Shown in pieces: positions 10,770-63,910 of a stretch of DNA of 64,000 bases. The notes under the pieces are model-generated. The model was not told the DNA's origin. It worked only from the letters and a program-made list of their open reading frames with translations, and searched no databases. This stretch comes from Flavobacterium sp. 9 (GTDB lineage Bacteria; Bacteroidota; Bacteroidia; Flavobacteriales; Flavobacteriaceae). The stretch lies in assembly GCF_002754195.1 (NCBI RefSeq), contig NZ_PEEU01000001.1:1736001-1800000 (forward strand), in the 5' to 3' direction. The first letter of the stretch is position 1. Every line of letters starts with the position of its first letter. The translations under genes and the position numbers were made by a program.

Positions 10770-10844
10770 AGCCCTGATGGAAGCAACATCCTTTTTCTTG
10801 CTCCCTTAGCAAGGAAAAGATATAGCGGACAGCAGGAATAGCTT
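10770..10844 (+). repeat. AGCCCTGAT-type dispersed hairpin element, copy A
   Basis: Starts AGCCCTGATGGAAG and ends AGCAGGAATAGCT. The central stem TTTTTCTTGCT (10792-10802) pairs with AGCAAGGAAAA (10808-10818) through 11 pairs with one G-T. Two further copies are at 33565-33646 and 63818-63910. It lies between the FadL-like terminator and the rimO promoter. Confidence 0.85.
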
Positions 10845-10897
10845 CATAAAAAACATCTAAAAGAAACGGAAACAAGCGCTGTTTGAATAAAAAAGTG

Positions 10898-10905
10898 TAA
10901 TTTTG
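10898..10905 (+). promoter_or_regulatory. -7 box of the rimO promoter (TAATTTTG)
   Basis: TAnnTTTG match 20 nt before the rimO ATG. It lies downstream of repeat copy A, so that repeat is probably not part of the rimO leader. Confidence 0.5.
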
Positions 10906-10924
10906 CACTCCAATTTATAAAAGT

Positions 10925-12238
10925 ATGAGAACCAAGTCTTTAAAAAAGAACAAAATTAACGTAATCACTCTTGGGTGTTCGAAGAATGTATATGACAGTG
11001 AAGTGCTTATGGGTCAGCTTCGTGCAAACGGAAAAGAAGTTGAACATGAAGCTCCTGCAGAAAGAGAAGGAAACATTATCGTAATCAACACTTGTGGTTT
11101 TATTGACAATGCTAAAGCGGAATCAGTAAACATGATTTTGGAATATGCTGATAAAAAAGACAAAGGATTAGTAGATAAGGTTTTTGTTACAGGATGTTTG
11201 TCTGAACGTTACAGACCTGACTTAGAAAAAGAAATCCCGAATGTGGATCAATATTTTGGTACAACTGAATTACCTCAATTATTGAAAGCTTTAGGTGCCG
11301 ATTATAAACATGAATTATTAGGTGAGCGTTTGACTACAACTCCTAAAAATTATGCTTACCTAAAAATTGCCGAAGGTTGCGACAGACCTTGTAGTTTTTG
11401 TGCAATTCCTTTAATGAGAGGTTCTCACGTTTCGCAACCAATCGAAAAACTGGTTAAAGAAGCGCAAGGTTTAGCCAAAAACGGGGTTAAAGAATTGATC
11501 TTAATCGCGCAAGACTTAACTTATTATGGTCTTGATATTTATAAAAAGAGAAATCTTGCTGAACTTCTTGAAGAATTAGCAAAAGTAGAAGGTATCGAAT
11601 GGATTCGTTTGCATTATGCTTATCCTACAGGTTTCCCAATGGATGTTTTGGAACTAATGAAGCGTGAGCCTAAAATCTGTAACTATATAGATATTCCGTT
11701 GCAACATATATCTGATTCTATTTTGAAATCGATGCGTCGTGGTACTACTCAGGCTAAAACGACTCAATTATTGAAAGATTTTAGAGCTGCGGTTCCGGGA
11801 ATGGCAATCAGAACTACTTTGATCGTTGGTTATCCTGGTGAAACTCAGGAAGATTTTGAAATTTTGAAAGATTTTGTTCAGGAAATGAAATTTGACAGAA
11901 TGGGTTGTTTTGCTTATTCTCATGAAGAAAACACACACGCTTATTTATTGGAAGATAATGTTCCGGATGATGTTAAACAAGCCAGAGCAAACGAAATCAT
12001 GGAATTACAATCTCAGATTTCATGGGATTTAAATCAGGAGAAAGTTGGACAAGTATTTAGATGTATTATTGACAGAAAAGAAGGTGCTCATTTTGTGGGT
12101 AGAACTGAGTTCGATAGTCCGGATGTTGACAATGAAGTCTTGATTGACGCTTCTAAACATTACGTAAAAACTGGCGAATTTGTTAATATACGAATAATAG
12201 AGGCGACAGAATTTGATTTATACGGAGAACCTGCTTAA
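10925..12238 (+). CDS. rimO: Ribosomal protein S12 methylthiotransferase RimO
   Basis: 437 residues. RimO is a radical SAM enzyme with two iron-sulfur clusters that adds a methylthio group to a conserved Asp of ribosomal protein S12. The N-terminal UPF0004 domain carries Cys18, Cys57 and Cys91 (LGCSKN, NTCGF, TGCLSE); the radical SAM motif CDRPCSFC has Cys152, Cys156 and Cys159; the C-terminal TRAM domain covers about 370-437. LGCSKNVYDSE is the RimO version of the motif, which separates it from MiaB. Length is normal. Likely monocistronic with its own -7 box. Confidence 0.96.
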   Translation: MRTKSLKKNKINVITLGCSKNVYDSEVLMGQLRANGKEVEHEAPAEREGNIIVINTCGFIDNAKAESVNMILEYADKKDKGLVDKVFVTGCLSERYRPDLEKEIPNVDQYFGTTELPQLLKALGADYKHELLGERLTTTPKNYAYLKIAEGCDRPCSFCAIPLMRGSHVSQPIEKLVKEAQGLAKNGVKELILIAQDLTYYGLDIYKKRNLAELLEELAKVEGIEWIRLHYAYPTGFPMDVLELMKREPKICNYIDIPLQHISDSILKSMRRGTTQAKTTQLLKDFRAAVPGMAIRTTLIVGYPGETQEDFEILKDFVQEMKFDRMGCFAYSHEENTHAYLLEDNVPDDVKQARANEIMELQSQISWDLNQEKVGQVFRCIIDRKEGAHFVGRTEFDSPDVDNEVLIDASKHYVKTGEFVNIRIIEATEFDLYGEPA

Positions 12239-12279
12239 ATTTACGCTATACAATATCAATTTTAGATAAAAACAATCTT

Positions 12280-12840
12280 ATGAAACCTACACTATCATTT
12301 TTTCTTTTGGTTTTTACTATACTCTGTTTCAATTCTGTTTCGGCACAATACGGAAATGGATATAATAATGGTTACGGTGGCGGTTATGGCAATAATGGCT
12401 ATGGAAGAGGTGGCGGAATGGGAATGGATCGAAGCATGATGGGTGGTCCGCAACAAAACACGCAAAGCAAACCTAAAGAAATCCCTGTAGAAGAAACGGC
12501 CGGTAGAATTGTTGAACAAATGAAACCGGAAGTAAATCTTGATGAACTTCAAGCAATTGCAATTACAAACGTATTGGCAGACAGCTTAAGAGAACAAGGA
12601 ATTCTTTTGAAAAATGAAAGCAGCAGTCAGGATCAAAAAATCGAGCAAATTAAAGCTTTAAGAGAAAGTACTACTAAAAAAATAACAGCTTTTTTAAATC
12701 CTGATCAAGTAGAAAAATACACTACTTTCATGAATAGCTTTAAAGAGGTTAAGAAAGCTAAATCAAAAAAGAAAAAAGATTCTAAAGAAGAAACTAAAGA
12801 AATAAAAGAAGATACAGAAGCAGCAAAAATTCAAGAATAA
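12280..12840 (+). CDS. Small exported protein with Gly-rich N-terminus and charged C-terminus
   Basis: 186 residues of unknown function. A signal peptide (about 1-22, ending SVSAQ) is followed by a Gly/Tyr/Asn-rich segment (about 23-58), a helical domain with EIPVEETAGRIVEQMKPEV and a FLNPDQVEKY segment (about 68-150), and a Lys/Glu-rich tail. The spacing of the helices and the 'LNPDQ..KY' segment loosely recall Spy/CpxP-type LTxxQ periplasmic proteins, but this is a weak resemblance. It starts 41 nt after rimO and is followed 36 nt later by an amidase lipoprotein gene, so the three may share a transcript. Confidence 0.75.
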   Translation: MKPTLSFFLLVFTILCFNSVSAQYGNGYNNGYGGGYGNNGYGRGGGMGMDRSMMGGPQQNTQSKPKEIPVEETAGRIVEQMKPEVNLDELQAIAITNVLADSLREQGILLKNESSSQDQKIEQIKALRESTTKKITAFLNPDQVEKYTTFMNSFKEVKKAKSKKKKDSKEETKEIKEDTEAAKIQE

Positions 12841-12876
12841 TTGTTCAGAACCTCATCTTAAAAAATCTAAGTAACC

Positions 12877-13782
12877 ATGTCAAAAAAACATTTTTGTTAT
12901 CTGATTTTAGCAATTATTATTACTTCTTGCTCTACAAATCCTTATAAAAACACTGAAAAAGCTTACGATCAACAGCTTAAAACTTTAGAGAACCAAATTA
13001 CAAGTAAAGATCCACAGGCAATACCTCCTATTCCTCCTGTTGTTATTGATACTTCTTATGCATCGCAATTAGGGATTGTAAAAGATACTTTATCAAAAAC
13101 AGGATCTACTTATTTACAAAATGGAGTAAATACAGAATGGGTTGGTACTGTAAATTTTAATTTAAGAAAACCTAGTTTTATTGTTTTACACCATACGGCG
13201 CAAGATTCTATTCAGCAAACAATTAAAACTTTTACCTTAACAAGAACACAAGTAAGTGCTCATTATATTATTTCTGAAAACGGAAAGGTGGTTCAGATGC
13301 TTAATGACTATTTAAGAGCTTGGCATGCAGGCGCATCGACTTGGGGGAAAAATACTGATTTGAATTCTTCTTCTATTGGAATTGAGCTTGACAATAATGG
13401 TTTTAAACCTTTTACAGAAGCACAAATTAGTAGTTTGGTCGCTCTTTTGACAAAATTGAAAAAAGAATACAATATACCAACTCAAAATATTTTAGGTCAT
13501 TCAGACATTGCTCCAGGAAGAAAACAAGATCCAAGCGCTTTATTTCCTTGGAAAACTCTTGCTGAAAAAGGTTTTGGAATCTGGCCGGATCAGGTTCTTG
13601 AAGAAGCTCCTTTTGACTTTAAAATTGAACAGGCTTTGAGAATTATTGGTTACAATACTAAGAATCTTTCGGCTGCAATTATGGCGTTCAAATTACACTA
13701 TATTCAAACTGATGTAACGCCAACTCTGGATCGAAAAACAATAGATACTATTTACTCGATCTACAAAAAACAAGTTCAGTAA
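12877..13782 (+). CDS. N-acetylmuramoyl-L-alanine amidase lipoprotein (Amidase_2)
   Basis: 301 residues. The lipobox IITSC gives Cys18 as the acylation site. The Amidase_2 (PGRP-like, zinc-dependent) domain spans about 95-230, with zinc ligands in VLHHT (His105/106) and LGHSDIAPGRKQDP (His208 and Asp218 region). A C-terminal helical region of about 60 residues resembles the peptidoglycan-binding tail of AmiD-like enzymes. Predicted role: cleaving the bond between MurNAc and the stem peptide in cell-wall turnover, from the inner leaflet of the outer membrane. A strong terminator follows. Confidence 0.92.
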   Translation: MSKKHFCYLILAIIITSCSTNPYKNTEKAYDQQLKTLENQITSKDPQAIPPIPPVVIDTSYASQLGIVKDTLSKTGSTYLQNGVNTEWVGTVNFNLRKPSFIVLHHTAQDSIQQTIKTFTLTRTQVSAHYIISENGKVVQMLNDYLRAWHAGASTWGKNTDLNSSSIGIELDNNGFKPFTEAQISSLVALLTKLKKEYNIPTQNILGHSDIAPGRKQDPSALFPWKTLAEKGFGIWPDQVLEEAPFDFKIEQALRIIGYNTKNLSAAIMAFKLHYIQTDVTPTLDRKTIDTIYSIYKKQVQ

Positions 13783-13804
13783 GAGATATTTACAAAAAGA
13801 TATA

Positions 13805-13845
13805 AAAAACGCATTTCCGGAAATCTGGAAATGCGTTTTTCTTTT
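13805..13845 (+). terminator. Terminator of the amidase gene
   Basis: AAAAACGCATTTCC (13805-13818) pairs perfectly with GGAAATGCGTTTTT (13827-13840), with an 8-nt loop and a T-run. Confidence 0.85.
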
Positions 13846-13900
13846 ATGGTATATTCTTGTTTTATTTCTATAAAGAATATTCTTCTTCGTATAAAAGTTT

Positions 13901-14299
13901 GCCACGAATTGGGATCAATACGGAAACCTGTGGAGCTATAAAAATTAAGGATGAATTTAACAGCAAAGGGCGCAAAGTTTTTTTGTTATAGATTACGCTC
14001 ATTAAACGCAAAGTTCGCAAAGCTTTATCAATATAACTTTGCGAACTTTGCGTTTATATAAAAACCCTAGGAATAAAAAACCTTTGCGCCCTTGGCGGTC
14101 AAAATGATTAGTCAATACAAAATATTTTATGTTTCTCCACAGGTTTTTGTGTTGATCCACGACTCGACCGAAGGGAATAGGCGAAGCAATTGCACGAATT
14201 TTCACTAATCATTTTTGCGCATATTCTATTCTTATTTTATCCAGTTTGTAATTAAACATTCACACAAAGTAATTAGTAAAAATTCGTGTAATTTGTGGC
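13901..14299. repeat. Concentric four-shell palindrome (CGCAAAG family)
   Basis: Gap between the convergent amidase and porin genes, with no credible gene. Nested inverted arms: GCCACGAATT 13901-13910 with 14290-14299 (one mismatch); AAACCTGTGGAG 13924-13935 with 14135-14146; AAGGGCGCAAAG 13966-13977 with 14082-14093; and a 19-bp arm 14004-14022 with 14037-14055 around a 14-nt loop. The three inner pairs are perfect. A further pair of short arms (about 14191-14203 with 14277-14290) sits on the right side. Confidence 0.9.
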
Positions 14300-14320
14300 A
14301 AAAGAAAACCTTGTTCCAAT

Positions 14321-14372
14321 AAAAAAGCTGCCAAAACATTAATATGTTTCGACAGCTCCAAAAAAAAAAAAA
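14321..14372 (-). terminator. Terminator of the porin-like gene
   Basis: An imperfect stem, AGCTGCCAAAACATT with AATATGTTTCGACAGCT, is flanked by A/T runs. It lies directly downstream of the minus-strand porin gene. Confidence 0.7.
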
Positions 14373-14392
14373 AAAAATATCAATCTTTATCT

Positions 14393-15487
14393 CTAGAAAG
14401 AGTATGTTGTAGCTATTAATCCGAAGAAAGATCCTCCTGTTGGATTAGCATCTTTGTCTAAAAAGACATCTTCTGATGCTGCATCGTATCTAAACTCTGG
14501 AATTATAGTAAGTTTTCCAACTTTATAATTTAACGAAATTGTGTTTGCAAAAACGTTTGTCCCTGCAACTGTACCTAAACTTGCAGCAGCGTCTTTAGCA
14601 TCAAAATATTCCATTCTGTATGCTAAGCTCAAAGTTGGTTTGAATGCGTAATTAGCATATCCAACTAATGAAAACCATTCTCCATCTAAGTCACTATCAA
14701 AATCATTTTTAGTTTTAGCATACGTTGCATTAAATCCTAAAGCAAAAGCATCCGTTATTGTTTTTGACGCCACAAAATCAATTTGTGTTTTATTTTCATC
14801 AGATGGCACTACTAAAGTTCCGGGAGTAGGATTTGTACTTCCTGATGTAAAATTCAAATAAGCACTTCCTGTCTCACCCACATATCCTAATTGACCTATG
14901 TATGTTTTTTGAGTAGAACCTGCATCCATTGCTGATTTAAAATCAGTTGGATTTGTGATACCAAACATAGCAGTAAATTTTCCAGATGTATACTGTGCCT
15001 TTACCCCTGTATTAAAGAACGGTCCGTATGAAAATGCATATGACATACTGTAGTTTTTATTTCCTATCGCGTCTAATACTTCATAGCCAATATGTGTTCC
15101 GAAACTACCAGCTACTACTTTAAATTTATCTGTAATTTGATATGTAAAGAACAATTGTTTTATTAAAAATTTAGAATAAATATCTTTATCTGTTGTTTCA
15201 TTATATGAAAATTCTCCTGCTCTTTTTCCGAATCCTAAATCTACAAAAACAGAAGCTTTTCCGAAAGTATGACCTGCCTGAACTGACGCCATTCCTAGTT
15301 CAAATGAATCCTGAGAGTTGGTAAAGCTCGTTAATCCGTTCATTTGTTTTGAAAAATCATATTTATAATAAGCATCTGCTGACCCGCTCCAAGTTGTTGC
15401 TGGCGAAACTGGTGTTTCTGTATCATCTTGGGCAAAGGCAAAAGAACTCGTTAACATCGCGGCAAAAATGTGTAATACTTTTTTCAT
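14393..15487 (-). CDS. Porin-like outer membrane beta-barrel protein (OmpL-like, BBP2 type)
   Basis: 364 residues with a signal peptide (about 1-19, ending AFAQ), then a beta-barrel of alternating strands starting WSGSADAYYKYDFSK and ending with the aromatic C-terminal strand FFGLIATTYSF. The pattern (YKYDF near the start, GHTFGKASVFVDLGFG, LFFTYQITDKFKVVAGSFG) matches the putative beta-barrel porin-2 family common in Bacteroidota outer membranes. The substrate is unknown. It is monocistronic with its own terminator and a long AT-rich upstream region, and lies just outside the mannan locus, so a link to it is only possible. Confidence 0.75.
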   Translation of the reverse strand: MKKVLHIFAAMLTSSFAFAQDDTETPVSPATTWSGSADAYYKYDFSKQMNGLTSFTNSQDSFELGMASVQAGHTFGKASVFVDLGFGKRAGEFSYNETTDKDIYSKFLIKQLFFTYQITDKFKVVAGSFGTHIGYEVLDAIGNKNYSMSYAFSYGPFFNTGVKAQYTSGKFTAMFGITNPTDFKSAMDAGSTQKTYIGQLGYVGETGSAYLNFTSGSTNPTPGTLVVPSDENKTQIDFVASKTITDAFALGFNATYAKTKNDFDSDLDGEWFSLVGYANYAFKPTLSLAYRMEYFDAKDAAASLGTVAGTNVFANTISLNYKVGKLTIIPEFRYDAASEDVFLDKDANPTGGSFFGLIATTYSF

Positions 15488-15850
15488 GGTTTAATTGGTT
15501 TTTAGTTATTAATTGATTTTGGTTAGTTAATCTTTTATATATCTATTTAATAGTATAAGTCGTTTCTAAAACCTTCACATTCTCCCCTAAAACCTCTTCA
15601 TTTTCATTAGCGAATTTATTAACTTTTGTATGAGTAGAACAATTCAAATCTATTTTTTTGACGTTTTACAGCGAGAATTATGGATTACAAAAATTATTTT
15701 AACAATAATCGTGATTTGACATTATAACAGATTTATTTTTGAAAATTCAATAACACGTTTTTAGAACAAACCACTAAAAAAAATCAACGTAAATCTAAAA
15801 ATATCACACAAACAACCAAAAAACACATATAAAACACATTTTAAAATTAT

Positions 15851-15875
15851 ATACCCCCATAAAAAATAGGGGTAT
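15851..15875. promoter_or_regulatory. ATACCCC-N11-GGGGTAT dyad, candidate operator
   Basis: ATACCCC (15851-15857) and GGGGTAT (15869-15875) form a 7-bp inverted repeat around an A/T-rich spacer. The GC-rich arms stand out sharply in surrounding AT-rich DNA, about 360 nt upstream of the porin start. No T-run follows, so it looks more like a protein-binding dyad than a terminator. Confidence 0.35.
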
Positions 15876-16050
15876 TTGTAAAAATAAAATTAAATCCACC
15901 AAATAACACTTATAAATACAGCTCTAAAGAAACAAAAAAAACAAACCGTCAAAATTCCTACAAAAATAAAACGCTGATTTTATCAAAATGCTAATAAACC
16001 AATACCAATATTTTTCAATTTTAAATCAGCACTTTATAATTAAAACAAAA

Positions 16051-16077
16051 AAACCTGTTCAGAATCTGAACAGGTTT
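16051..16077 (-). terminator. Terminator at the end of the minus-strand PUL segment
   Basis: AAACCTGTTCAGA and TCTGAACAGGTTT form a near-perfect palindrome about 25 nt after the GH5 stop, with an upstream A-run that reads as U in the minus-strand transcript. Confidence 0.8.
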
Positions 16078-16101
16078 ACCTCTAAAAATAATTCAACAAT
16101 T

Positions 16102-17067
16102 TTATTCTTGCGTATTATACTTTCTTAAAAACTCGCGAACTTTAATTCCGGATTCTTTTAAATCTTCATCTTTCCACTTTCCTTCTGATTTTGCAGATTT
16201 TTTCAAAATAGAACATGTTTCGTCTTTATCAGAAACAGACCAAGTTATCCAACTTAGCTTTTTAGATTCCATCCAATCTATATATTCCTGCCAGGCTTTC
16301 AGGTTTAGCGGTCCGTCACCGGAAGCTTCCATTCCTGCAGACTCCGAAACAAAAATTGGCAAACCACTTTTTATAGCATCGTCCGTTCTGTCTCTTAATT
16401 CTTTTCCATGCGTTGCGGCATAAAAATGCATGGTATACATTATATTATCATATCCTCGAATTGGGTCTTCGGCAGGAAGATTTACATCCTGATCCCAATG
16501 TGGCGATCCTACCAAAATAATATTTTTAGGATCGTTCTCTCGAATTACTTTAATTACCTCTTCGGCGTAAGCCTTAACTTCTGACCACGATTCGTAATCA
16601 GGTTCATTAAAAACTTCATAAATTATATTGGGATATTTGCCATATTTCTTAGACATTTCGGCAAAAAAAGCTTTGGCTTCTTCCAGATTAATATTATGAC
16701 TGTGCCAATCTATAATTACATATATATCAGATTTTATGGCTCCATTTACTACAGCCTCGATTTTTTCTTTTGAGAATTGTGGTTCTTTCAAATAAGCCCA
16801 CTCTCCTATTTCAATTCCCATTGCAGCACGCACGACATTACAATTAAAATCCTTTTTTAACCAATTAACGGCTTTCTCATTATAAAACCTTGGCCACATA
16901 CTATGCCAGCCAAAACTCATTCCTCTTAATACAATTGGATTATTATCCTTATCTACTAACTGAGTTCCTAATACACTAAGTTGTCCATGATGTTTTACAA
17001 ATTGCGCTTTTGAAACGCAAAACATCAAGAGTAAAGCAATTGTAAAAAATTTGGTCTTTGATTTCAT
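16102..17067 (-). CDS. GH5-family endoglucanase/endo-glycanase
   Basis: 321 residues: signal peptide (about 1-21, ending SKAQ) and one (beta/alpha)8 GH5 catalytic domain. The acid/base Glu155 lies in VFNEPD and the nucleophile Glu242 in FVSESAG; RGMSFGWHSMWPR and WITWSVSDKDETC are typical of the bacterial cellulase-type GH5 subfamily 2. Such enzymes cut beta-1,4-glucan links; in this locus the likely target is the glucose-containing parts of glucomannan. It follows the GH27 gene by 11 nt and is the last gene of the minus-strand PUL segment, ended by a terminator. Confidence 0.9.
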   Translation of the reverse strand: MKSKTKFFTIALLLMFCVSKAQFVKHHGQLSVLGTQLVDKDNNPIVLRGMSFGWHSMWPRFYNEKAVNWLKKDFNCNVVRAAMGIEIGEWAYLKEPQFSKEKIEAVVNGAIKSDIYVIIDWHSHNINLEEAKAFFAEMSKKYGKYPNIIYEVFNEPDYESWSEVKAYAEEVIKVIRENDPKNIILVGSPHWDQDVNLPAEDPIRGYDNIMYTMHFYAATHGKELRDRTDDAIKSGLPIFVSESAGMEASGDGPLNLKAWQEYIDWMESKKLSWITWSVSDKDETCSILKKSAKSEGKWKDEDLKESGIKVREFLRKYNTQE

Positions 17068-17078
17068 AGCAAACTGTT

Positions 17079-18317: not shown

Positions 18318-18393
18318 TTTATTCTATTTTGATATTTTGTAATGTTGTTATTTTTTAATCTGCGGAAACAGAATAATATTTTATTAAATTATA

Positions 18394-18433
18394 AAAAACT
18401 CCAAATCGATGTCTCGAAATGGAGTTCTTTTTG
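18394..18433 (-). terminator. Hairpin between the T9SS type A gene and the GH27 gene
   Basis: AACTCCA (18398-18404) pairs with TGGAGTT (18420-18426), flanked by A and T runs. On the minus strand it follows the T9SS type A gene and may end or attenuate the upstream transcript. Confidence 0.65.
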
Positions 18434-18450
18434 TTATTAAAGAACGTTTT

Positions 18451-19425: not shown

Positions 19426-19552
19426 AATTATATTTTTTTGTGTTAAAATAAATGATATATGTAAATTTAAACATCCATTTTACACACATTCAATACTATT
19501 TTATTAAAACACAATACTATATCGTCAATTTAAGAAAGAATTTTCTTTAATA

Positions 19553-19588: not shown

Positions 19589-19608
19589 ACATTACTAATT
19601 ACAATTCA

Positions 19609-20685: not shown

Positions 20686-20702
20686 ATTTTTATTTTTAAA
20701 AA

Positions 20703-33365: not shown

Positions 33366-33425
33366 CGTTATCGTTAAAATGGCACACGGATTTGAACAGA
33401 TTTAAACGGGTTTACGCGGTTTTTT

Positions 33426-33527
33426 TTGTCATTTCGACGGAGGAGAAATCACACTCGTGAATCGACAAAGATTGGCGATTTTCTATGCGGAGTTTCTAGT
33501 GTGATTTCTCCTCCGTCGAAATGACAA
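33426..33527. repeat. TGTCATTTCGACGG long inverted repeat, copy 1
   Basis: Perfect 30-bp inverted arms (33426-33455 and 33498-33527) enclose a 42-nt core containing TCGACAAAGATTGGCGA. A second, diverged copy with the same core lies at 38911-39014. It occupies the gap after GH26-2. Confidence 0.9.
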
Positions 33528-33564
33528 GATTGTGGAAAACTAAAAACTTCTAAAAAAACCTAAA

Positions 33565-33646
33565 ACCCTAGCCCTGATAGAAGTGAAAATCCTTTTGTGC
33601 CGGGGTTCGGCACAAAAGATTGAAACAAATAGCGGGAAACAGCTCC
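33565..33646 (+). repeat. AGCCCTGAT-type dispersed hairpin element, copy B
   Basis: Runs from ACCCTAGCCCTGATAGAAG to GGGAAACAGCTCC. The central stem TTTTGTGCCG (33593-33602) pairs perfectly with CGGCACAAAA (33608-33617). It ends 14 nt before the GH5_7 start codon, in the same orientation as that gene. Confidence 0.9.
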
Positions 33647-33660: not shown

Positions 33661-34944
33661 ATGAAAAATATATTTCTAAAAACTCTCGGATTAGCTTTAA
33701 TTTTTTCTACGATCGCTTGTCAGGCGCAGGAAAGAATTACGGTGAAGGGAACGCAATTTTACAAAGGCAATAAGCCGTATGCTTATATTGGTACGAATTA
33801 TTGGTACGGAAGTTTATTGGCTTCGAAAAAAGTGGGCGACCGAAAAAGATTGCTTCGCGAACTGGATTTGATGCAGAAATACGGAATCAACAACTTAAGA
33901 ATTTTAGTTGGCGGCGATGGCGGAAAATATGATTTTACGGTTCGCCCAGCTTTGCAATATGAACAAGGAAAATACGATGAAGATTTGCTCGATGGTTTGG
34001 ATTTTTTGATTAGCGAAATGAGCAAACGAAAAATGTATGCGGTTTTGTATTTGACCAACAATTGGGAATGGTCCGGCGGAATGTCGCAATATTTAGAATG
34101 GAATGGAAAAGGTCCAATTCCGGTTCCTAATATTGCACCAAATACTTGGCCGCAATTTATGGCTTATACAGAACAATTTCATAGTTGTGAACCTTGTATG
34201 AAAGGTTTAGAAGATCATGTGAAATTTATTATTGGAAGAACTAACGCCTATTCTCATAAAAAATACACGGAAGATAACACGATTATGGCGTGGCAAGTTG
34301 GGAATGAACCGAGGCTTTTTACGGTAGAAAATGAAGCAAAATTCACGTCTTGGCTGAATAATATTGTAGATTTAATTGATAGTTTAGACAAAAATCATTT
34401 GATTTCTACAGGTTCTGAAGGAAAAAACAGTTCGAATGATAGTATGGAGATTTTCGAACGAACGCATAAAAATCCGCATATTGATTATTTAACAATGCAC
34501 ATTTGGCCCAAAAACTGGAATTGGTTTAAGGCTGATAACGCCGAAAAAACTTTACCAACGACACTCGAAAATGCCGGAAAATATATTGACGATCATATTA
34601 CTGTTGCCAATAATTTAAAGCGACCAATTATTATCGAAGAATTTGGTTTGGGAAGAGAAAACGAAAGTTTACTTGCAACCTCATCTGTGGCAAACAGAGA
34701 TATTTTCTACAATTTCATTTTTAACCGTGTTGCCGAAAGTCATAAAAATAATGATCCGTTGCAAGCAGCGAATTTCTGGGGATTTGGTGGCGAAGGAAAA
34801 GCAGTAAATGCAACCGGAAAATGGAATCCGGGCGATCCTTTAACAACCGATCCTCCGCAAGAACCTCAAGGATTAAATTCTGTTTTTTCGTCGGATAAAT
34901 CGACGTTGGATATTGTGAAGAAATACAATTTACAATTGAAATAA
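33661..34944 (+). CDS. GH5_7 endo-beta-1,4-mannanase
   Basis: 427 residues from the ATG at 33661. An in-frame ATG at 33583 falls inside a dispersed repeat and would put 26 non-signal residues before the signal peptide, so the later start (MKNIFLKTLGLALIF) is chosen. A Cys20 in STIAC may be lipidated. The GH5 subfamily 7 domain has the acid/base Glu216 in WQVGNEPRLF, the nucleophile Glu327 in IIEEFGLGRE, and MHIWPKNWNW. It cuts the mannan backbone internally. It is the last gene of the plus-strand PUL operon and converges with an aldo/keto reductase gene. Confidence 0.94.
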   Translation: MKNIFLKTLGLALIFSTIACQAQERITVKGTQFYKGNKPYAYIGTNYWYGSLLASKKVGDRKRLLRELDLMQKYGINNLRILVGGDGGKYDFTVRPALQYEQGKYDEDLLDGLDFLISEMSKRKMYAVLYLTNNWEWSGGMSQYLEWNGKGPIPVPNIAPNTWPQFMAYTEQFHSCEPCMKGLEDHVKFIIGRTNAYSHKKYTEDNTIMAWQVGNEPRLFTVENEAKFTSWLNNIVDLIDSLDKNHLISTGSEGKNSSNDSMEIFERTHKNPHIDYLTMHIWPKNWNWFKADNAEKTLPTTLENAGKYIDDHITVANNLKRPIIIEEFGLGRENESLLATSSVANRDIFYNFIFNRVAESHKNNDPLQAANFWGFGGEGKAVNATGKWNPGDPLTTDPPQEPQGLNSVFSSDKSTLDIVKKYNLQLK

Positions 34945-38855: not shown

Positions 38856-38910
38856 GAACGGCAAACGAGAATGTTTTGTTTCCAAAAGAAAAACTTCAAT
38901 TTCCACAATC

Positions 38911-39014
38911 TTGTCATTTCGACGGAGGAGAAATCACACACGTAACTCGACAAAGATTGGCGACTTTGATTACGGAATTTCTAGTGTGATTTCTCCCTTC
39001 GGTCGAAATGACAA
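38911..39014. repeat. TGTCATTTCGACGG long inverted repeat, copy 2
   Basis: Left arm 38911-38939 and right arm 38983-39014 are inverted copies with small differences (CGACGGAGGAG against CGACCGAAGGGAG). The core contains TCGACAAAGATTGGCGA as in copy 1 at 33426-33527. Confidence 0.88.
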
Positions 39015-39235
39015 AAAAAAAGCTTAATTTCCAATCTTTGTCGAGTTTCTTGCGGAGATTCCTCGTTCCTCGGAATGACAAACTTTATGTTTCACTTTCC
39101 GGGACTTCAACTTCGCTCAGTCTGACAAAAATGAAACGTAACAACAAGAAAAATCTGCGTCAATCCGTTACATCAGTAAAATCCGTGGGCAAAAAAATCT
39201 ATCCCGAGGCTTCGGGACTAAAATCTAAAATTCCT

Positions 39236-57432: not shown

Positions 57433-57438
57433 CGATTA

Positions 57439-57607
57439 TTTAACCGCAAAGTTCGCAAAGTATTTTTCGCAAAGGTCACAAAGTTTTTTTAGATCGCGGT
57501 TTTATAAAAACACAAAGTTCGCAAAGCTTTTTTTAAACTAGCTTTGCGAACTTTGTGTTTTTCTATGCGTAATATAAAATTAAATCTTAGCGAACTTTGC
57601 GGTTAAA
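57439..57607. repeat. Concentric two-shell palindrome (CGCAAAG family)
   Basis: Gap between convergent genes. The outer perfect 18-bp arms TTTAACCGCAAAGTTCGC (57439-57456) pair with 57590-57607; the inner perfect 23-bp arms 57506-57528 pair with 57540-57562 around an 11-nt loop. The motif CGCAAAGTTCGCAAAG is shared with the element at 13901-14299. Confidence 0.9.
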
Positions 57608-57609
57608 AA

Positions 57610-58887
57610 TTAAAACTGATGTACTTTCTTAGAAATCACTAAAAATGAGATTAAAGAAATTAAAGCAGCGGCTGTCAAATAAAAACCTACATAATTCAAT
57701 CCATATGTACTTGCAAGCCAAATTGCAATCATTGGTGCAAATGCAGCACCAAGAATTCCTGCCAAGTTAAAAGTCAAAGAAGCACCGGAATAACGAACTG
57801 TAGTAGGAAACAACTCAGATAAAAAAGTTCCTAATGGTCCATACGTGAATCCCATTAAAGACATTCCGATGCAAACAAAAGCTGTTACTAAAACAGAATT
57901 TCCCGAATTTAGAAAGTAAGAAAAGAAAAATCCAAAAACAGCAATAGCCGCTGTCGTAATAATTAATATTTTTCTACGTCCAATTTTATCGGCAACCAAA
58001 GCTGAAACAGGAATAAAAAAGGCGAAAAATAATACTGAAAGTAATTGAATCAATAAAGCTTCTCTTTTAGTAAAACCTAAATCTGAAGTGGCCCAACTCA
58101 GAGTAAAAACAGTCATTAAATAAAAAACCAAAAAGGTTGTAACTGCAGACAATGTTCCAAAAATCAATTGATTTTTATATGATTTCAGTAAAGTAAAAAA
58201 TGGAATTTTAACTTCTTTTTGTTCTTCTTTAGAATTTTCGAAAGCAGGCGTTTCGCTAATTTTTAAACGAATATAAAATCCAACAATTACCAAAAGTGAA
58301 CTTGCTATAAATGGAATTCTCCATCCATAATCCATAAAAGCTTCACTACTCATGCTGTCTGTCAAAATTAAAAAAGTCCCACCTGAAAGCAATAATCCTA
58401 TTGGTGCTCCCAATTGCGGAAACATTCCGTACCACGCACGTTTATGTGGCGGAGCATTTTCGATTGCCAATAAAACAGCGCCTCCCCACTCGCCTCCTAA
58501 ACCAACTCCCTGACCAAATCTACACAACATTAATAAAATTGGTGCAGCAATCCCGATACTTGCATAACCCGGTAAAAAACCAATTGCTATTGTCGATAAT
58601 CCCATTGTCAATAATGCAACTACAAGAGTCACTTTTCGTCCAATTTTATCACCATAATGCCCAAAAACAGCGGATCCCAAAGGTCTTGCCAAAAATGCTA
58701 TAGAAAACGTAGCCAATGATTCTAGTGTAGAAACAGTGCTATTAGCGCCCGGGAAAAAAAGTTGAGGAAAAACCAATACGGCAGCATTGGCATAAATATA
58801 GAAATCAAAAAATTCAATTGTGGTCCCAATTAAAGAACCAAAAAGAACATGTCGCAAGGAATTTTCCTTATTAGGATTATTTTTCAT
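57610..58887 (-). CDS. MHS-family MFS transporter (ProP/ShiA/KgtP-like)
   Basis: 425 residues from the ATG at 58887, with 12 predicted membrane helices. GSLIGTTIEFFDFYIYANAA, ARPLGSAVFGHYGDKIGRK and QGVGLGGEWGGAVLLAIENAP are hallmarks of the metabolite:H+ symporter family, whose members import organic acids, betaine or shikimate. The substrate cannot be chosen from sequence. A TTG 30 nt further upstream is in frame but lies inside the TATTTTTG promoter box, so it cannot be the start of translation in this promoter's transcript. It is monocistronic and divergent from bshC. Confidence 0.92.
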   Translation of the reverse strand: MKNNPNKENSLRHVLFGSLIGTTIEFFDFYIYANAAVLVFPQLFFPGANSTVSTLESLATFSIAFLARPLGSAVFGHYGDKIGRKVTLVVALLTMGLSTIAIGFLPGYASIGIAAPILLMLCRFGQGVGLGGEWGGAVLLAIENAPPHKRAWYGMFPQLGAPIGLLLSGGTFLILTDSMSSEAFMDYGWRIPFIASSLLVIVGFYIRLKISETPAFENSKEEQKEVKIPFFTLLKSYKNQLIFGTLSAVTTFLVFYLMTVFTLSWATSDLGFTKREALLIQLLSVLFFAFFIPVSALVADKIGRRKILIITTAAIAVFGFFFSYFLNSGNSVLVTAFVCIGMSLMGFTYGPLGTFLSELFPTTVRYSGASLTFNLAGILGAAFAPMIAIWLASTYGLNYVGFYLTAAALISLISFLVISKKVHQF

Positions 58888-58914
58888 GTAAGATAGATAT
58901 ACTTTTTTTAGTTG

Positions 58915-58922
58915 CAAAAATA
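58915..58922 (-). promoter_or_regulatory. -7 box of the MHS transporter gene (TATTTTTG)
   Basis: TAnnTTTG match ending 27 nt upstream of the ATG at 58887. It decides the start, because the alternative TTG codon at 58917 is part of this box. Confidence 0.55.
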
Positions 58923-59159
58923 TAATTTCATTATTAATAATTCATCTTTACCAAAATAAGTTTCAAAACAATCCTGCTTTTTTAACAAATTACATGCACT
59001 TTCAATTTTACCAAACAACTTTAAAACAAAAAAATTAAAAACCTGATTACGGGACTTTTAAACTTAAAATCAAAAATCAAATCATAAGCAATAGTTAAAA
59101 CCGTTTTTAACTGCATATTTTCATTAAATTTACAGCTATCAAAAATTAAATTCCAAATT

Positions 59160-60749
59160 ATGCCTACCGACTGTATCAGCTATCAAACTTCAGGATATTT
59201 CTCTAAGTTAATACAAGATTATTTAGATCAAAAATCAGAATTAAAACCGCTATACAATCATTTTCCAACTTTGGAAAACTTCGAAAAACAGATCACTGAA
59301 AAACAAGCTAATTTTGATAATGCAAACCGAATTCCTTTGGTTGAAACATTAAAAAAACAATATCGAAATATTGAAGTTTCAGATGCAACAAAACAAAACA
59401 TTGAGCTTTTAGCACTTCCAAATACGTTTACAATTACAACCGGACATCAATTAAATTTATTTAGTGGTCCATTGTATTTCTTGTATAAAATCATTTCGAC
59501 AATTAATCTTACCAAAGAATTAAAACTAAAATATCCGACGAATAATTTTGTTCCTATTTATTGGATGGCAACAGAAGATCACGATTTTGAAGAGATTAAT
59601 TATTTTAATTTTAAAGGAAAAAAATTCCGTTGGAATAAAGAAAGTACCGGACCAGTAGGAAGACTTTCTACAGAAGGTTTAGAAGAATTTTTCGAAATAT
59701 ATTCAAAAGATTTAGGTTCAAGCACAAATGCTAATGTCCTGAAAAAAATATTTGAAGAAGCTTATTTAAAGCATGAGAATCTTGCTGATGCAACTCGTTT
59801 TTTAGCCAATAGTTTATTTGCAAATTACGGTTTAGTAATTCTGGATGCTGATGATGCCAATTTGAAACGTCCTTTTATCCCTTATATCAAAGAGGAATTA
59901 GAGCAACAAACTTCCTTTAAAACTGTTCAGGAAACGATCTCAAAATTTCAAGATTATACTGTTCAGGTAAATCCACGCGAAATCAATTTGTTTTATATCG
60001 AAGATGATTTAAGAGAAAGAATCATTTTTGAGAAAGACAAATACTTTGTAAACAATACTAAGATTTCATTTTCGAAAGAAGAAATTTTACAACTATTAGA
60101 AAATAATCCGGAGAAATTTAGTCCAAATGTGATTATGCGTCCGTTGTATCAGGAAATTATTTTACCAAATTTATGTTACATTGGCGGAGGCGGAGAAATT
60201 GCTTATTGGTTAGAATTAAAATCTTTCTTTGATGCCGTAAAAATCACTTTTCCGATGCTTTTGGTTCGTAATTCTGTTTTATTAAACACTGAAAAACAAG
60301 CAAAAAAGGCAGACAAATTAGGTTTAAGCTGGGCAGATTTATTCACAAAACCTGCTGATTTAATAAATACAGTCACTCGTAAATTATCAGCTTTTCTTAT
60401 TGATTTAACGCCTCAAAAAGAAACATTGGAAAAACAATTTGAATATCTTTACGAACTGGCACAACAAACTGATAAATCATTTACCGGAGCTGTAAAAGCG
60501 CAAGAGGTAAAACAAAAGAAAGGTTTGGAAAATCTGGAAAAACGTTTATTAAAAGCACAAAAACGAAAACTGGATAATGAATTACAACGTGTCGCAGATT
60601 TACAATTCGAGTTATTTCCGAACCAAAGTCTGCAGGAACGTCAAGCTAATTTTTCTGAATTTTATCTGGAGAAAGGCGAACAATTGATTCCGCTTTTAAT
60701 TCAAAAATTAAAACCATTAGAAACAAATTTTAATATCATAACAATATAA
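59160..60749 (+). CDS. bshC: Bacillithiol biosynthesis cysteine-adding enzyme BshC
   Basis: 529 residues, full length for BshC. N-terminal Rossmann-like domain with TITTGHQLNLFSGPLYFLYK and PIYWMATEDHDFEEIN, then NVIMRPLYQEIILPNLCYIG-G, and a C-terminal coiled-coil region (about 420-500). BshC joins L-cysteine to glucosaminyl-malate, the last step in bacillithiol, the low-molecular-weight thiol used by many Bacteroidota as well as Firmicutes. bshA and bshB are not in this window. The gene stands alone with its own upstream region. Confidence 0.96.
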   Translation: MPTDCISYQTSGYFSKLIQDYLDQKSELKPLYNHFPTLENFEKQITEKQANFDNANRIPLVETLKKQYRNIEVSDATKQNIELLALPNTFTITTGHQLNLFSGPLYFLYKIISTINLTKELKLKYPTNNFVPIYWMATEDHDFEEINYFNFKGKKFRWNKESTGPVGRLSTEGLEEFFEIYSKDLGSSTNANVLKKIFEEAYLKHENLADATRFLANSLFANYGLVILDADDANLKRPFIPYIKEELEQQTSFKTVQETISKFQDYTVQVNPREINLFYIEDDLRERIIFEKDKYFVNNTKISFSKEEILQLLENNPEKFSPNVIMRPLYQEIILPNLCYIGGGGEIAYWLELKSFFDAVKITFPMLLVRNSVLLNTEKQAKKADKLGLSWADLFTKPADLINTVTRKLSAFLIDLTPQKETLEKQFEYLYELAQQTDKSFTGAVKAQEVKQKKGLENLEKRLLKAQKRKLDNELQRVADLQFELFPNQSLQERQANFSEFYLEKGEQLIPLLIQKLKPLETNFNIITI

Positions 60750-60764
60750 AAAACAAAAGATCTC

Positions 60765-60824
60765 GCCACGAATTTTACAAATACTCGCGAATAAAAATTA
60801 GTACTAATTCGTGAAATTCGTGGC
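60765..60824. repeat. GCCACGAATTT inverted repeat
   Basis: GCCACGAATTTTAC (60765-60778) is inverted as GTGAAATTCGTGGC (60811-60824) with one mismatch; a weaker inner pair TCGCGAAT/ATTCGTGA lies within. Its outer motif matches shells of the elements at 13901 and 36101. Confidence 0.75.
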
Positions 60825-60967
60825 AAAAAAATAATCCGTTAAGCGGATCAATATGAATAATAAAGTAATAATTCTCAGAAACAAATAACCACCTCTTCTA
60901 AGATTATTGCCTCTCTAAACCAAATAGTAACTTTTAAAAACAAAAAATTAACCTATTTACCAAAATT

Positions 60968-62239
60968 ATGACCAGAGAGCGCTTGATATCCTTGGATGTC
61001 TTTAGAGGATTAACAATTTTATTAATGACTATTGTAAACAATCCCGGAGATTGGGGACACGTTTACGCACCTTTATTACATTCAGAATGGCATGGCTGCA
61101 CGCCAACCGATTTAGTTTTTCCATTTTTTATCTTTATTATGGGAGTTGCAGTTCCTCTCGCAATGCCAACTAAAACTTGGAACGACACAACTTTCAACAA
61201 AATTCTTGTTCGTTCTCTTCGAATGTTCTGCCTTGGAATTTTCTTTAATTATTTTGCGAAAATTCAGCTTTTTGGACTCGACGGAATTCCACTTCTTATT
61301 GGTCGTCTGATTATTACCGTTGCTGTTGGTTATGCCTTAATGGGTAATTTCAGTTCTAAAGTCAAAAATATATTGGTCTTTTCGATTCTGTTTATTTACC
61401 TCTTTTTAGCTTATAGCGGTATTGAAGCCTATGAAAGCGTTCGTTTACCAGGCGTTTTACAACGAATTGGAATTGTTTACTTTGTAGTTTCTCTACTGTA
61501 TTTAAAAACAAGTAAAAAGACACAAATCATCACCGGAATAGTTCTATTATTGAGTTATTGGGCAATAATGACTTTAATTCCAGTTCCGGGAATTGGCGAA
61601 GCAAATTTAGAAAAAGGAACAAATCTAGCTTCTTGGTTAGACAGCGTTTTACTTAAAGGACATATGTATCGCGAAACCATAACCTGGGATCCCGAAGGAA
61701 TTTTAAGTACACTTCCTTCAATTGTAAACGGAATTATTGGTTTATTAATTGGACAAATATTACAACTTGAAATAACCAAAAAACAAAAAGCTACAAAAAT
61801 TGCTATTGCCGGCATAGAACTTATCATTGCAGGATTAATTTGGAGTATTGTTTTCCCAATAAATAAATCATTGTGGACAAGCAGTTATGTTTTATACACA
61901 ACGGGATTAGCAGCTACAGTTTTATCTATACTATATTATATAATTGACATTGCAGATTATAAAAAAGGATTCAAATTATTTTTAATCTGGGGAGTAAATC
62001 CAATGATTGTATTTTTCTTCTCACAGATTATTCCGCAAGCCTTAGTAATGGTTCAACTTAAAAATCCCGAAAATCCCGAAACTCAAATCAATCTTTTAAA
62101 TTATTTATATCATTTCGGAATTGCGCCATTTTTTAGCAATCCAATGATGGCTTCATTAGCCGGAGCTTTAGTTTATGTAGGAATCTGGTCTTTTATTTTA
62201 TGGATTTTCTATAAAAACAAACTGATTTTCAAAGTCTAA
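60968..62239 (+). CDS. NagX-like membrane acyltransferase (DUF5009/HGSNAT-type)
   Basis: 423 residues with about 10-11 membrane helices. The N-terminus RERLISLDVFRGLTILLMTI, HSEWHGCTPTDLVFPFFIFI and GVLQRIGIVYF are typical of the family that includes bacterial NagX and the lysosomal heparan-alpha-glucosaminide N-acetyltransferase. A role in acetylating or handling amino sugars at the inner membrane is assumed from the family; none has been shown here. It lies 218 nt after bshC, separated by a repeat, and is followed by a pair of small palindromes before ndk. Confidence 0.88.
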   Translation: MTRERLISLDVFRGLTILLMTIVNNPGDWGHVYAPLLHSEWHGCTPTDLVFPFFIFIMGVAVPLAMPTKTWNDTTFNKILVRSLRMFCLGIFFNYFAKIQLFGLDGIPLLIGRLIITVAVGYALMGNFSSKVKNILVFSILFIYLFLAYSGIEAYESVRLPGVLQRIGIVYFVVSLLYLKTSKKTQIITGIVLLLSYWAIMTLIPVPGIGEANLEKGTNLASWLDSVLLKGHMYRETITWDPEGILSTLPSIVNGIIGLLIGQILQLEITKKQKATKIAIAGIELIIAGLIWSIVFPINKSLWTSSYVLYTTGLAATVLSILYYIIDIADYKKGFKLFLIWGVNPMIVFFFSQIIPQALVMVQLKNPENPETQINLLNYLYHFGIAPFFSNPMMASLAGALVYVGIWSFILWIFYKNKLIFKV

Positions 62240-62257
62240 ATTTTTCACCATATATAT

Positions 62258-62328
62258 AGAGACGCACAGCAGTGCGTCTTTTTTTATTAAATATTACTTT
62301 ATGTTAGATGCACTGCTGTGCATCTCTA
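62258..62328. repeat. Pair of mutually inverted GACGCAC / GATGCAC palindromes
   Basis: AGACGCAC-AGCA-GTGCGTCT (62260-62279) and AGATGCAC-TGCT-GTGCATCT (62306-62325) are each hairpins and are also inverted copies of one another. The first is followed by a T-run and could terminate the upstream gene. Related to the inner hairpin at 34960-34981. Confidence 0.8.
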
Positions 62329-62418
62329 CTATCACTTATATGGTTTAAAAAAATCATAAAAACATTATTTCTTACTCTTTAATTATGAATTTATTAAAAT
62401 CAATTCATAAAAAAAGTA

Positions 62419-62426
62419 TACTTTTG
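62419..62426 (+). promoter_or_regulatory. -7 box of ndk (TACTTTTG)
   Basis: TAnnTTTG match followed by CAC, 25 nt before the ndk ATG. No obvious -33 TTG. Confidence 0.5.
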
Positions 62427-62451
62427 CACAAAATTAAAAATAAGCAATAAA

Positions 62452-62871
62452 ATGGCAACAAATAGAACTTTTACAATGATTAAGCCAGATGCAGTTCAAA
62501 ACGGACACATCGGTAATATCTTAGCAATGATTACTAATGGAGGTTTCAAAATCGTTTCATTAAAATTAACTCAATTAACTGTAGCTGATGCTCAAGCATT
62601 TTACGCAGTTCACTCTGCAAGACCTTTCTACGGAGAATTAGTTGAATTCATGTCTCGTGGACCAATTGTTGCTGCAATTTTAGAAAAAGACAACGCAGTA
62701 GAAGATTTCAGAACTTTAATTGGAGCTACAAATCCAGCTGAAGCTGCTGAAGGAACTATTCGTAAAGCATACGCAACTTCTATTGGAGAAAATGCAGTTC
62801 ACGGTTCTGATAGCGACGAAAACGCTGCAATCGAAGGTGCATTCCACTTTGCTGGAAGAGAGCAATTCTAA
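62452..62871 (+). CDS. ndk: Nucleoside-diphosphate kinase
   Basis: 139 residues, full length. NDK transfers the gamma-phosphate from ATP to other nucleoside diphosphates through a phospho-His: His117 in [32 protein letters not shown] and [17 protein letters not shown] are the other family blocks. High use of common codons fits strong expression. Monocistronic, with a -7 box just upstream and a terminator hairpin downstream. Confidence 0.98.
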
Positions 62872-62877
62872 TTCAGA

Positions 62878-63048
62878 CTTCTTAGATAGTTAGAATTTTA
62901 GACTAACTTAGATTTCTTAGAATTACAAAATAAAGAAACCCACTTCATTGAAGTGGGTTTTGTTTTTTTATCTTATTATTATTTTAAACAATCTAAAATC
63001 TAAATAAATCTAAGCTAGTCTAAAAGTCTAAAAAGTCTAAGCAAGTCT
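62878..63048. repeat. TTAGAnTTnTTAGACT-type inverted repeat around the ndk terminator
   Basis: Left arm (about 62874-62925) and right arm (about 62990-63048) are imperfect inverted copies built of short TTAGA/TCTAA units. The right arm runs into the end of the convergent DUF721 gene and supplies its TAG stop codon. Confidence 0.75.
62936..62972 (+). terminator. Terminator of ndk
   Basis: AAACCCACTTC (62936-62946) pairs with GAAGTGGGTTT (62950-62960), with a 3-nt loop and a T-rich tail. It lies in the centre of the TTAGA inverted repeat. Confidence 0.85.
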
Positions 63049-63343
63049 AACGTAAAACTACATCTTTCACCACGTCACGCCCTAATTCTTCATTAATCAT
63101 CTTAACGATTTTCGATTTTCCGTGACTTAATTCTTCTCTCAAAACCGCCGATCCAAGCTCAACATACAACGTACTGCCTTTTAGCACAACATTTTTAGTG
63201 TACGTGTTTACTCCATTTCCCATCAACTGTCTCCACGCCTCTTTCACATCAATCTGATCCATTCCGGGCTGTAATTTATTTACCTGGATTATCTGTTGCA
63301 AAACAGCCCCAATCGTACTTTGATTATTTAGTCTTTTTGCCAT
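63047..63343 (-). CDS. DUF721 / DciA-family protein
   Basis: 98 residues of the DUF721 family, N-terminal part with TIGAVLQQIIQVNKL, central VKEAWRQLMGNGVNTYTKNV and C-terminal LYVELGSAVLREELSHGKSKIV. DciA-like proteins load the replicative helicase in many bacteria; in Bacteroidota this short version is often next to recF, which may be outside this window. Its ATG overlaps the end of the upstream small lipoprotein gene by 20 nt, so they are coupled. Its stop codon lies in an inverted repeat. Confidence 0.88.
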   Translation of the reverse strand: MAKRLNNQSTIGAVLQQIIQVNKLQPGMDQIDVKEAWRQLMGNGVNTYTKNVVLKGSTLYVELGSAVLREELSHGKSKIVKMINEELGRDVVKDVVLR

Positions 63344-63764
63344 CGTTTAATAAATTTATTGGTCCTGCTTTTTTATAATGATACTCTTTTTTCTCCTGAT
63401 TTTTCACCACCAATTCCTTATCCGAAATCGAAATCAATTCTTCACTCCACTTTGCATAATCCGTTTTGTAATCTAAAAAAACCTGATTATCCTTAAACCG
63501 AACCGAAACATTTTCAAAAGAATCACTCGTTAAAAAAGTTCCATCAAATTGCGGCATTACTTTCTTTCGAATTCCTTTATTATTTTTAATTTCAAAAAAA
63601 TCAAAGCTTTCATTCACACCATAATCCTTTTGTTCACCCTTATCAAAAACCACTTTTTCGATTTCCCAATAACCATTAAGTTTTGCAATATCCGTTGGTT
63701 TAATTTCCTGCTTGCAACTCACAAACAAGAGTAACAAAGCCAAAATTATAAAAGTGTTTTTCAT
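63324..63764 (-). CDS. Small lipoprotein, lipocalin-like
   Basis: 146 residues with lipobox LFVSC (Cys17). After it, KLNGYWEIEKVVFDKGEQK begins a beta-strand-rich domain of lipocalin-like type, with GIRKKVMPQFDGTF and VSVRFKDNQVFLDYKT as later strands. Function unknown. It is expressed with the DUF721 gene, which overlaps its end by 20 nt; that gene pair is common in Flavobacteria from memory. About 54 nt upstream is copy C of the AGCCCTGAT element, and a TAACTTTG box further up suggests the element lies in this gene's leader. Confidence 0.75.
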   Translation of the reverse strand: MKNTFIILALLLLFVSCKQEIKPTDIAKLNGYWEIEKVVFDKGEQKDYGVNESFDFFEIKNNKGIRKKVMPQFDGTFLTSDSFENVSVRFKDNQVFLDYKTDYAKWSEELISISDKELVVKNQEKKEYHYKKAGPINLLNDGKKTK

Positions 63765-63817
63765 AGTTTATTATATTAAAATTCAATTACTTCAATCTTA
63801 TTTAAATTAAGAATCAG

Positions 63818-63910
63818 GAGCTATTTCCTGCTGTACGCTATATCTTTTATGTCTCCCGAAGCCTCGGGACCGCCATAAAAGGATACCGCTTCCATCAGGG
63901 CTAGGGCTCC
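63818..63910 (-). repeat. AGCCCTGAT-type dispersed hairpin element, copy C
   Basis: On the minus strand it runs from GGAGCCCTAGCCCTGATGG to CAGGAAATAGCTCC. The central stem is TTTTATG/CATAAAA, then TCCCGA/TCGGGA with loop GGCT. The outermost GGAGC/GCTCC also pair. Same orientation as the downstream lipoprotein gene. Confidence 0.9.

Follow-up and report, generated by a model that had tools for sequence, protein, structure and literature searches.

Flavo-1 copies in the window

Three copies of a hairpin element (hereafter copies A, B and C) lie in a stretch of 64,000 nucleotides of the Flavobacterium sp. 9 chromosome (contig NZ_PEEU01000001.1, positions 1,736,001 to 1,800,000), referred to below as the window. 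Copy A is situated between the terminator of the upstream gene and the promoter of rimO, where it had been expected. An ATG follows 12 nt after the end of copy B, with no promoter identified there, and copy C lies between a -7-like box and a small lipoprotein gene (open reading frame (ORF) 63324-63764). The copies were found where the original prediction, made from the sequence, had placed them, offset by only a few bases, and each stem is self-complementary (CTTGCT/AGCAAG, GTGCCG/CGGCAC and TCCCGA/TCGGGA, respectively). The guess that the element might be Flavo-1 was borne out by comparison with Rfam: all three sites match RF01705 over the full length of the model and above its gathering score of 42 (scores in Table 1). 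Flavo-1 in this chromosome is a known family with new members, the new points being the apparent exchange of hairpin tips between copies and the inheritance of copies in place.

Distribution of Flavo-1

On the Flavobacterium sp. 9 chromosome (6.33 Mb; "own" below, as opposed to the compared genomes G004, G135, G185 and others), 113 Flavo-1 matches were retrieved at E<=0.001, 94 of them above the gathering score, when 150 of 1745 candidates were scored. Four of the 113 (one second-strand duplicate and three weak matches) were excluded from the further analysis. With 120 candidates scored per genome, 16 members of the genus, this strain included, carry 4 to 110 matches each. In an order-wide draw of 196 genomes, for which the best 22 candidates per genome were scored, matches at E<=0.001 were present in 73 genomes and matches above the cut-off in 66. 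No match was found in 14 control genomes, and taken together the Flavo-1 copies far exceed what chance would give. A query made of one copy or one exact pattern, which divergent copies could escape, found nothing on plasmids, phages or viral contigs. The 94 matches over the cut-off are 75-145 nt long. The element behaves as an extragenic palindrome, 101 of 109 own copies being clear of ORFs of at least 70 aa as delimited by a simple ORF caller and 8 overlapping one.

Conserved fold and covariation

The sense strands of copies A, B and C are predicted to adopt one long hairpin common to all three (-23.2, -24.2 and -31.0 kcal/mol, respectively), with z-scores of -1.92, -2.33 and -1.87 that were equalled by 6, 6 and 10 of 200 shuffles; taken singly, the copies thus exceed chance by no more than a modest margin. 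For copy A, the antisense strand folds as well as the sense strand (-23.8 kcal/mol), and for copies B and C more poorly (-22.1 and -25.8 kcal/mol).

RNAalifold applied to 52 own copies returned 21 pairs, 14 of them with two-sided changes. After refitting on 107 distinct own copies, 97.3 % of the cells were paired vs 74.0 % in shuffles, and two-sided changes were counted in 547 cells vs 162, with 18 of the 21 pairs affected; sliding the partners in this alignment cut pairing to 43-50 %. The 86 distinct rows taken from G004, G135 and the rimO loci gave 97.5 % pairing and 467 two-sided changes. None of 500 shuffles reached any covariation measure in either set of rows, these counts leaning towards the model structure to which the alignments were fitted. 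The claim of a conserved folded structure with real covariation is thereby supported.

The conserved base of the hairpin comprises an outer CCNG/CNGG helix (the N pair being C:G, U:A, G:C or A:U), followed inwards by a U-A pair, by an A:U, G:C, U:A or C:G pair, and then by GU/AC or GC/GC, together with purine-rich internal loops and a bulged C. The tip hairpin is variable, and the commonest tips listed end in GGGGTT- or TTTCTTTAAA-type loops. Variants, e.g. those downstream of rRNA operons, have GGG/CCC in place of the outer helix plus a third hairpin. An outer AGC/GCT extension was also recognised, which is an addition to the published motif.

Inheritance in place

Upstream of rimO, a copy was found in 29 of 80 loci at E<0.5 (26 at E<=0.001), always oriented as copy A, and four further matches, two of them weak, lie elsewhere in rimO loci. 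Among the remaining loci listed, altered or decayed forms occur at L102, L110, L113 and L171, and none is visible at others. As the rimO copy is missing or decayed in many loci, that copy is dispensable.

In G004, 16 of 30 copies had flanks matching own Flavo-1 neighbourhoods; in G135, 20 of 30 did. Flank identity at positions shared across species is about 75-88 %. From the loci with matching flanks, 15 of the 16 in G004 and 17 of the 20 in G135 gave 32 ortholog pairs, which were selected for the element in both genomes (own regions being taken only at copies), in which three own loci occur twice, and of which three lie before rRNA operons, where paralog assignment is uncertain. The orientation of the element is the same in 31 of the 32 pairs by BLAST, and by alignment in the 32nd (copy C and its ortholog), for which no flank could be aligned as the window ends there. 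In these pairs the element has a median identity of 0.81; its 60-nt flanks reach 0.64 and 0.705, and unrelated sequence gives 0.58. Flavo-1 keeps its place and orientation in the examined ortholog pairs, and many copies are inherited in place.

Proposed exchange of tips between copies

Where a pair has changed between orthologs, it still pairs in 62 of 65 cases in the lower part and 121 of 126 in the apical part, vs means of 47.9 and 63.8 and maxima of 56 and 78 in 1000 null draws. Among these changes, 153 are two-sided and kept, 30 one-sided and kept, and 8 broken. The tip differs by at least 4 edits in 27 of the 32 pairs, both arms being altered to a similar extent, and for all 27 an own paralog is closer than the ortholog (within 1 edit for 11, identical for 4). 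Because choosing the closest of 107 paralogs gives them a numerical advantage, the comparison was also made with the best of 29 own paralogs, which gave a mean of 3.83 tip edits, the ortholog giving 11.1. Non-orthologous copies of the other genome, again with the best of 29 taken, gave a mean of 4.22, so that the tips resemble a repertoire shared between species and shuffled between sites, not a genome-specific set; homogenisation of tips within a genome is not supported by these values.

In 10 parsed pairs, identity between orthologs vs that between other copies was 0.88 vs 0.79 for the lower parts and 0.69 vs 0.63 for the tips; own copies were parsed by regular expression in 67 of 109 cases and G004 copies in 27 of 30. 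For instance, the lower part of own copy 3787531 is 98 % identical to that of its G004 ortholog and the tip is replaced. The type of internal loop is sometimes changed too, on both arms at once.

The original prediction had ascribed the compensatory stem changes to selection on a fold. Conservation of pairing holds, but since orthologous tip hairpins differ as whole units, most changes of the central stem do not resemble stepwise compensation. With 27 of 32 tips differing and a closer copy present in the same genome, the covarying stem seems to result largely from whole-hairpin exchange among copies, in addition to selection on the fold. Swapping of tips as whole units would explain why stems differ and still pair, and recombination between paralogs is the simplest cause of these differences.

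Orientation to genes, promoters and expression

The three window copies are indeed oriented like the gene downstream, but the neighbour classes over the whole genome indicate that the family follows no such rule: of the 71 copies of at least 60 bits, 33 have a co-oriented gene downstream, and so do 46 of all 105 copies with two neighbours. For the latter, the classes (upstream, downstream) are (+,+) 36, (-,-) 37, (+,-) 22 and (-,+) 10; in the same order, the counts are 6, 10, 9 and 1 in G004 and 8, 9, 3 and 9 in G135. A preference for convergent over divergent gene pairs was considered and rejected as inconsistent between genomes (22 to 10 for own copies, 9 to 1 in G004 and 3 to 9 in G135). 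Copies antisense to both neighbours have 93.6 % canonical pairs vs 94.1 % for the (+,+) class, with similar bit scores, and show 28 GU vs 1 AC.

The proposal that two copies lie in mRNA leaders agrees with the sites of copies B and C, but does not extend to the family, given the random orientation; the consistent sense orientation before genes that characterises cis-regulatory leaders is absent from the counts above. The full promoter motif TTG-N15..23-TAnnTTTG, which we take to be that of Bacteroidetes, was present in 2 of 93 upstream-sense flanks vs 2, 1 and 4 in three control flanks, and TAnnTTTG alone in 5 of 93 vs 15, 16 and 11 in the other three flanks. These counts cover this promoter type and 93 of the 94 copies over the cut-off; copy C, which has a -7-like box, is the missing one, as the window ends there. 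For this one promoter type, the 93 flanks showed no enrichment of the own upstream promoter that an independent small RNA (sRNA) gene would have.

With the origin placed from 16S strands, own copies are split 59 to 35 between replication strands, the split point coming from a scan and being chosen after the fact. The split is 17 to 17 in G185 (34 of 41 matches assignable) and 20 to 12 in G135 (32 of 41). As for expression, passages of a transcriptome study of F. psychrophilum published in 2021 (PMC9723704) report Flavo-1 matches sense or antisense to transcripts, many lying outside them, and some 5' transcribed regions that coincide with Flavo-1.

Search for a transposase partner

A Y1 transposase of the RAYT type (associated with repetitive extragenic palindromic (REP) sequences) had been suggested as a possible mover, and our searches lend this no support. 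Two Y1 genes were found in the own chromosome, without Flavo-1 within 1.5 kb, and by coordinates the Y1 gene nearest to a listed Flavo-1 is at 5.7 kb in G135 and at about 100 kb in G185. The presence of Y1 is not linked to the number of Flavo-1 matches (101 matches and no Y1 in G004, 44 and none in G011, no match and three Y1 in G021). With neither linkage nor co-occurrence, a RAYT/Y1 partner was rejected. A Y1 gene flanked by the repeat, as in REP/RAYT systems, was not seen, this being judged by position in the own genome, G135 and G185 and by presence and number in the others.

Neighbouring features and associated repeats

The features read around the three copies are listed in Table 1.

Table 1. 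Flavo-1 copies and neighbouring features in the window
Feature	Position	Strand	Remarks
Flavo-1 copy A	10766..10843	+	RF01705 71.9 bits, R1 84.9 bits
Flavo-1 copy B	33566..33643	+	RF01705 73.6 bits; ATG follows at 33661; ortholog in G135 (L217)
Flavo-1 copy C	63820..63906	-	RF01705 66.3 bits; ortholog in G135 (L212)
Intrinsic-terminator-like hairpin CCGTCA...TGACGG + T run	10740..10769	+	read from sequence
TAATTTTG, -7-like box of rimO promoter	10898..10905	+	3' of copy A; from sequence
TAACTTTG, -7-like box	63940..63947	-	upstream of copy C; retained in G135 ortholog
Palindromic module TCCCGAGGCTTCGGGA	63854..63869	-	tip of copy C hairpin; tip hairpin differs in G135 ortholog
Inverted-repeat unit TTTGTCATTTCGA...TCGAAATGACAAG	33425..33528		upstream of copy B; part of composite repeat

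The 5' end of copy A falls inside the T run of the terminator, a layout shared by many of the rimO loci listed, and the TAATTTTG box is retained in many of the rimO-upstream lines listed. For the boxes near copies A and C, TAnnTTTG was presumed to be the -7 consensus. A terminator at the 5' end is not a general rule, since a crude test found one for only 3 of 93 copies, two of them after rRNA operons; the arrangement is nonetheless present at rimO. At one rimO locus (L145:2476-2908), two divergent Flavo-1 about 135 bp apart precede the gene, a layout resembling a bacterial interspersed mosaic element (BIME).

Many 16S genes (3 of 6 own genes (genome G000), 5 of 6 in G185 and 4 of 5 in G135) have an antisense Flavo-1 copy some 670-800 bp upstream, and four own rRNA operons have a variant copy after them; some rRNA operons are thus bracketed by outward-pointing copies. 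A long repeat common to four copies was considered as an autonomous element, a reading dropped because the shared stretch adjoins 16S genes and is the rRNA operon.

Several other repeats are associated with the element. TCCCGAGGCTTCGGGA is a separate repeat, which stands alone at a second site in the window (39202-39217) and is also found inside the tips or internal loops of other Flavo-1 copies; in own copy 4474470 it occupies the site of about 6 other bases in the G004 ortholog. Further hairpin modules, among them TCCCGAAGCTTCGGGA and the TTGCTTCGCCAGTTCGC type, interrupt the 5' or 3' internal loop as insertions in own copies 4355132, 1347087, 3376403, 2059526, 1583180, 1602391, 4772101, 3673406 and 6237680. 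Own copies 1152917, 3993561, 538571, 4028324 and 3207765 form a subtype in which a TTCTTATGAAAA-like motif lies on the 3' side of the core; this motif is 5' in many other copies, and its 3' placement resembles a permuted or duplicated flank. A second repeat consists of TTTGTCATTTCGA...TCGAAATGACAAA inverted repeats at 33425-33528 and 38910-39082. Of 16 own Flavo-1 copies that were aligned, 11 have both halves of the TTTGTCATTTCGA-bounded composite immediately upstream. As regards the features of miniature inverted-repeat transposable elements (MITEs), this composite is found around some copies, and no duplication of the target was established.

Discussion

Flavo-1 (RF01705) was published in 2010 by Weinberg et al. 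and appears in a table of that paper (PMC2864571) as a likely RNA that is not cis-regulatory. The copies studied here match it in sequence and structure, and nothing in our data excludes membership. Beyond the published description come the outer AGC/GCT extension, the variants in which the outer helix is different and a third hairpin is present, the palindromic modules in internal loops, tip exchange and inheritance in place.

Flavo-1 resembles REP elements and BIMEs in being extragenic and palindromic, with about 100 copies and no clear orientation to genes. It differs from them in length, REPs being given as units of 20-40 bp in the part of the literature consulted (PMC3733652). Further differences are its conserved internal loops, the absence of a linked RAYT, and positions kept across species. 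Integron attC sites combine a poorly conserved sequence with a conserved single-strand fold, an extrahelical base and a variable terminal structure. These traits resemble those of Flavo-1; no integron context was seen, integrase and attC core boxes not having been searched for. Among the repeated candidate RNAs of Weinberg et al. (2010), STAXI and others are likewise repeated hairpins that were initially put forward as RNAs; according to a passage of that paper (PMC2864571), STAXI often has UUCG loops, unlike the commonest Flavo-1 tips listed. A table row in RepRanger (PMC12306157) gives counts for two Flavobacterium species, and the row itself is not linked to Flavo-1. At the level of literature listings, searches naming Flavo-1 or RF01705, and others on flavobacterial repeats, REP/RAYT and small RNAs, returned no function for Flavo-1.

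We lean, with modest confidence, towards reading Flavo-1 as an old, chromosomal, REP-like interspersed repeat that is recognised as a folded single strand. It would have been kept because a structure-specific factor recognises this folded strand, more likely as DNA than as mRNA, and the tips would have been acquired from other copies when paralogs recombined (ectopic gene conversion). As to which strand folds, G-U exceeds A-C on the annotated strand by 66 to 5 in own copies, 9 to 0 in G004, 10 to 6 in G135 and 8 to 6 in rimO orthologs, these wobble cells not being independent; on lower pairs only, the counts are 1 to 4 in G135 and 4 to 5 at rimO, with no excess. Of the one-sided changes between orthologs, 30 leave a G-U pair and 5 break the pair. 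The G-U excess suggests that the annotated strand is the one that folds, as RNA or as single-stranded DNA alike, and the indifference to gene orientation favours single-stranded DNA, short of proof.

A role as RNA, i.e. a structured segment transcribed by read-through from either side and bound by an RNA-binding factor or involved in RNA processing, is possible and in our judgement clearly less probable. It fits the wobble asymmetry, the better folding of the sense strand of copies B and C (not of copy A) and their sense placement directly before genes, as well as the Rfam type (sRNA), the listing as a probable RNA by Weinberg et al., and the F. psychrophilum 5' regions that coincide with Flavo-1 in passages of that study (PMC9723704). 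It has to contend with the random orientation to genes, the equal conservation of copies antisense to both neighbours, the lack of enrichment of promoter motifs upstream in sense (copy C lying outside the count) and, in the same passages (PMC9723704), the absence of a sense preference. Perfect stems could also arise without selection for folding, if one arm were recopied from the other by template-switch mutation. Such events can yield multi-base compensatory changes, as a published account indicates (PMC8794818), and two-sided changes do exceed one-sided ones here; yet copying of one arm would spare the other, whereas both arms are changed alike in the 27 differing tips. Similar tips are moreover met again at different loci and in different species, and one-sided changes mostly keep a G-U pair, which makes this origin improbable. 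We regard as very improbable a REP element moved by a hairpin-recognising Y1 (RAYT) transposase: copy number and its variation between species, extragenic placement and hairpin form would suit it, but the own Y1 genes lack adjacent Flavo-1, Y1 and Flavo-1 numbers are unlinked, the nearest Y1 genes in G135 and G185 are distant, and many copies are inherited in place.

Several points weigh against the folded-repeat reading that we prefer. The wobble asymmetry and the sense placement of copies B and C have just been mentioned; the upstream gene is co-oriented for 42 of 71 and 58 of 105 own copies, a mild excess by count. No partner protein was found, Y1 being the sole candidate examined. Flavo-1 is missing or decayed at many rimO loci, the ortholog pairs were chosen for having the element, the similarity of tips within a genome scarcely exceeds that between genomes, and the replication-strand counts disagree among the own genome, G185 and G135. 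A more far-reaching version, doubtful in our view, would make Flavo-1 a chromosome-wide network of fixed, structure-defined sites that exchange tips via folded single strands, i.e. a hairpin recombination system with a structure-specific enzyme also accepting other palindromic repeats at three set positions (5' loop, tip and 3' loop).

Flavo-1 is here recast from an sRNA candidate to a repeat that is often inherited in place, is indifferent to gene orientation and has tips differing as units. Covariation in a multi-copy hairpin family can stem largely from exchange, so orthologs should be checked before stepwise compensation is read from it; in such families, covariation may largely reflect exchange between copies.

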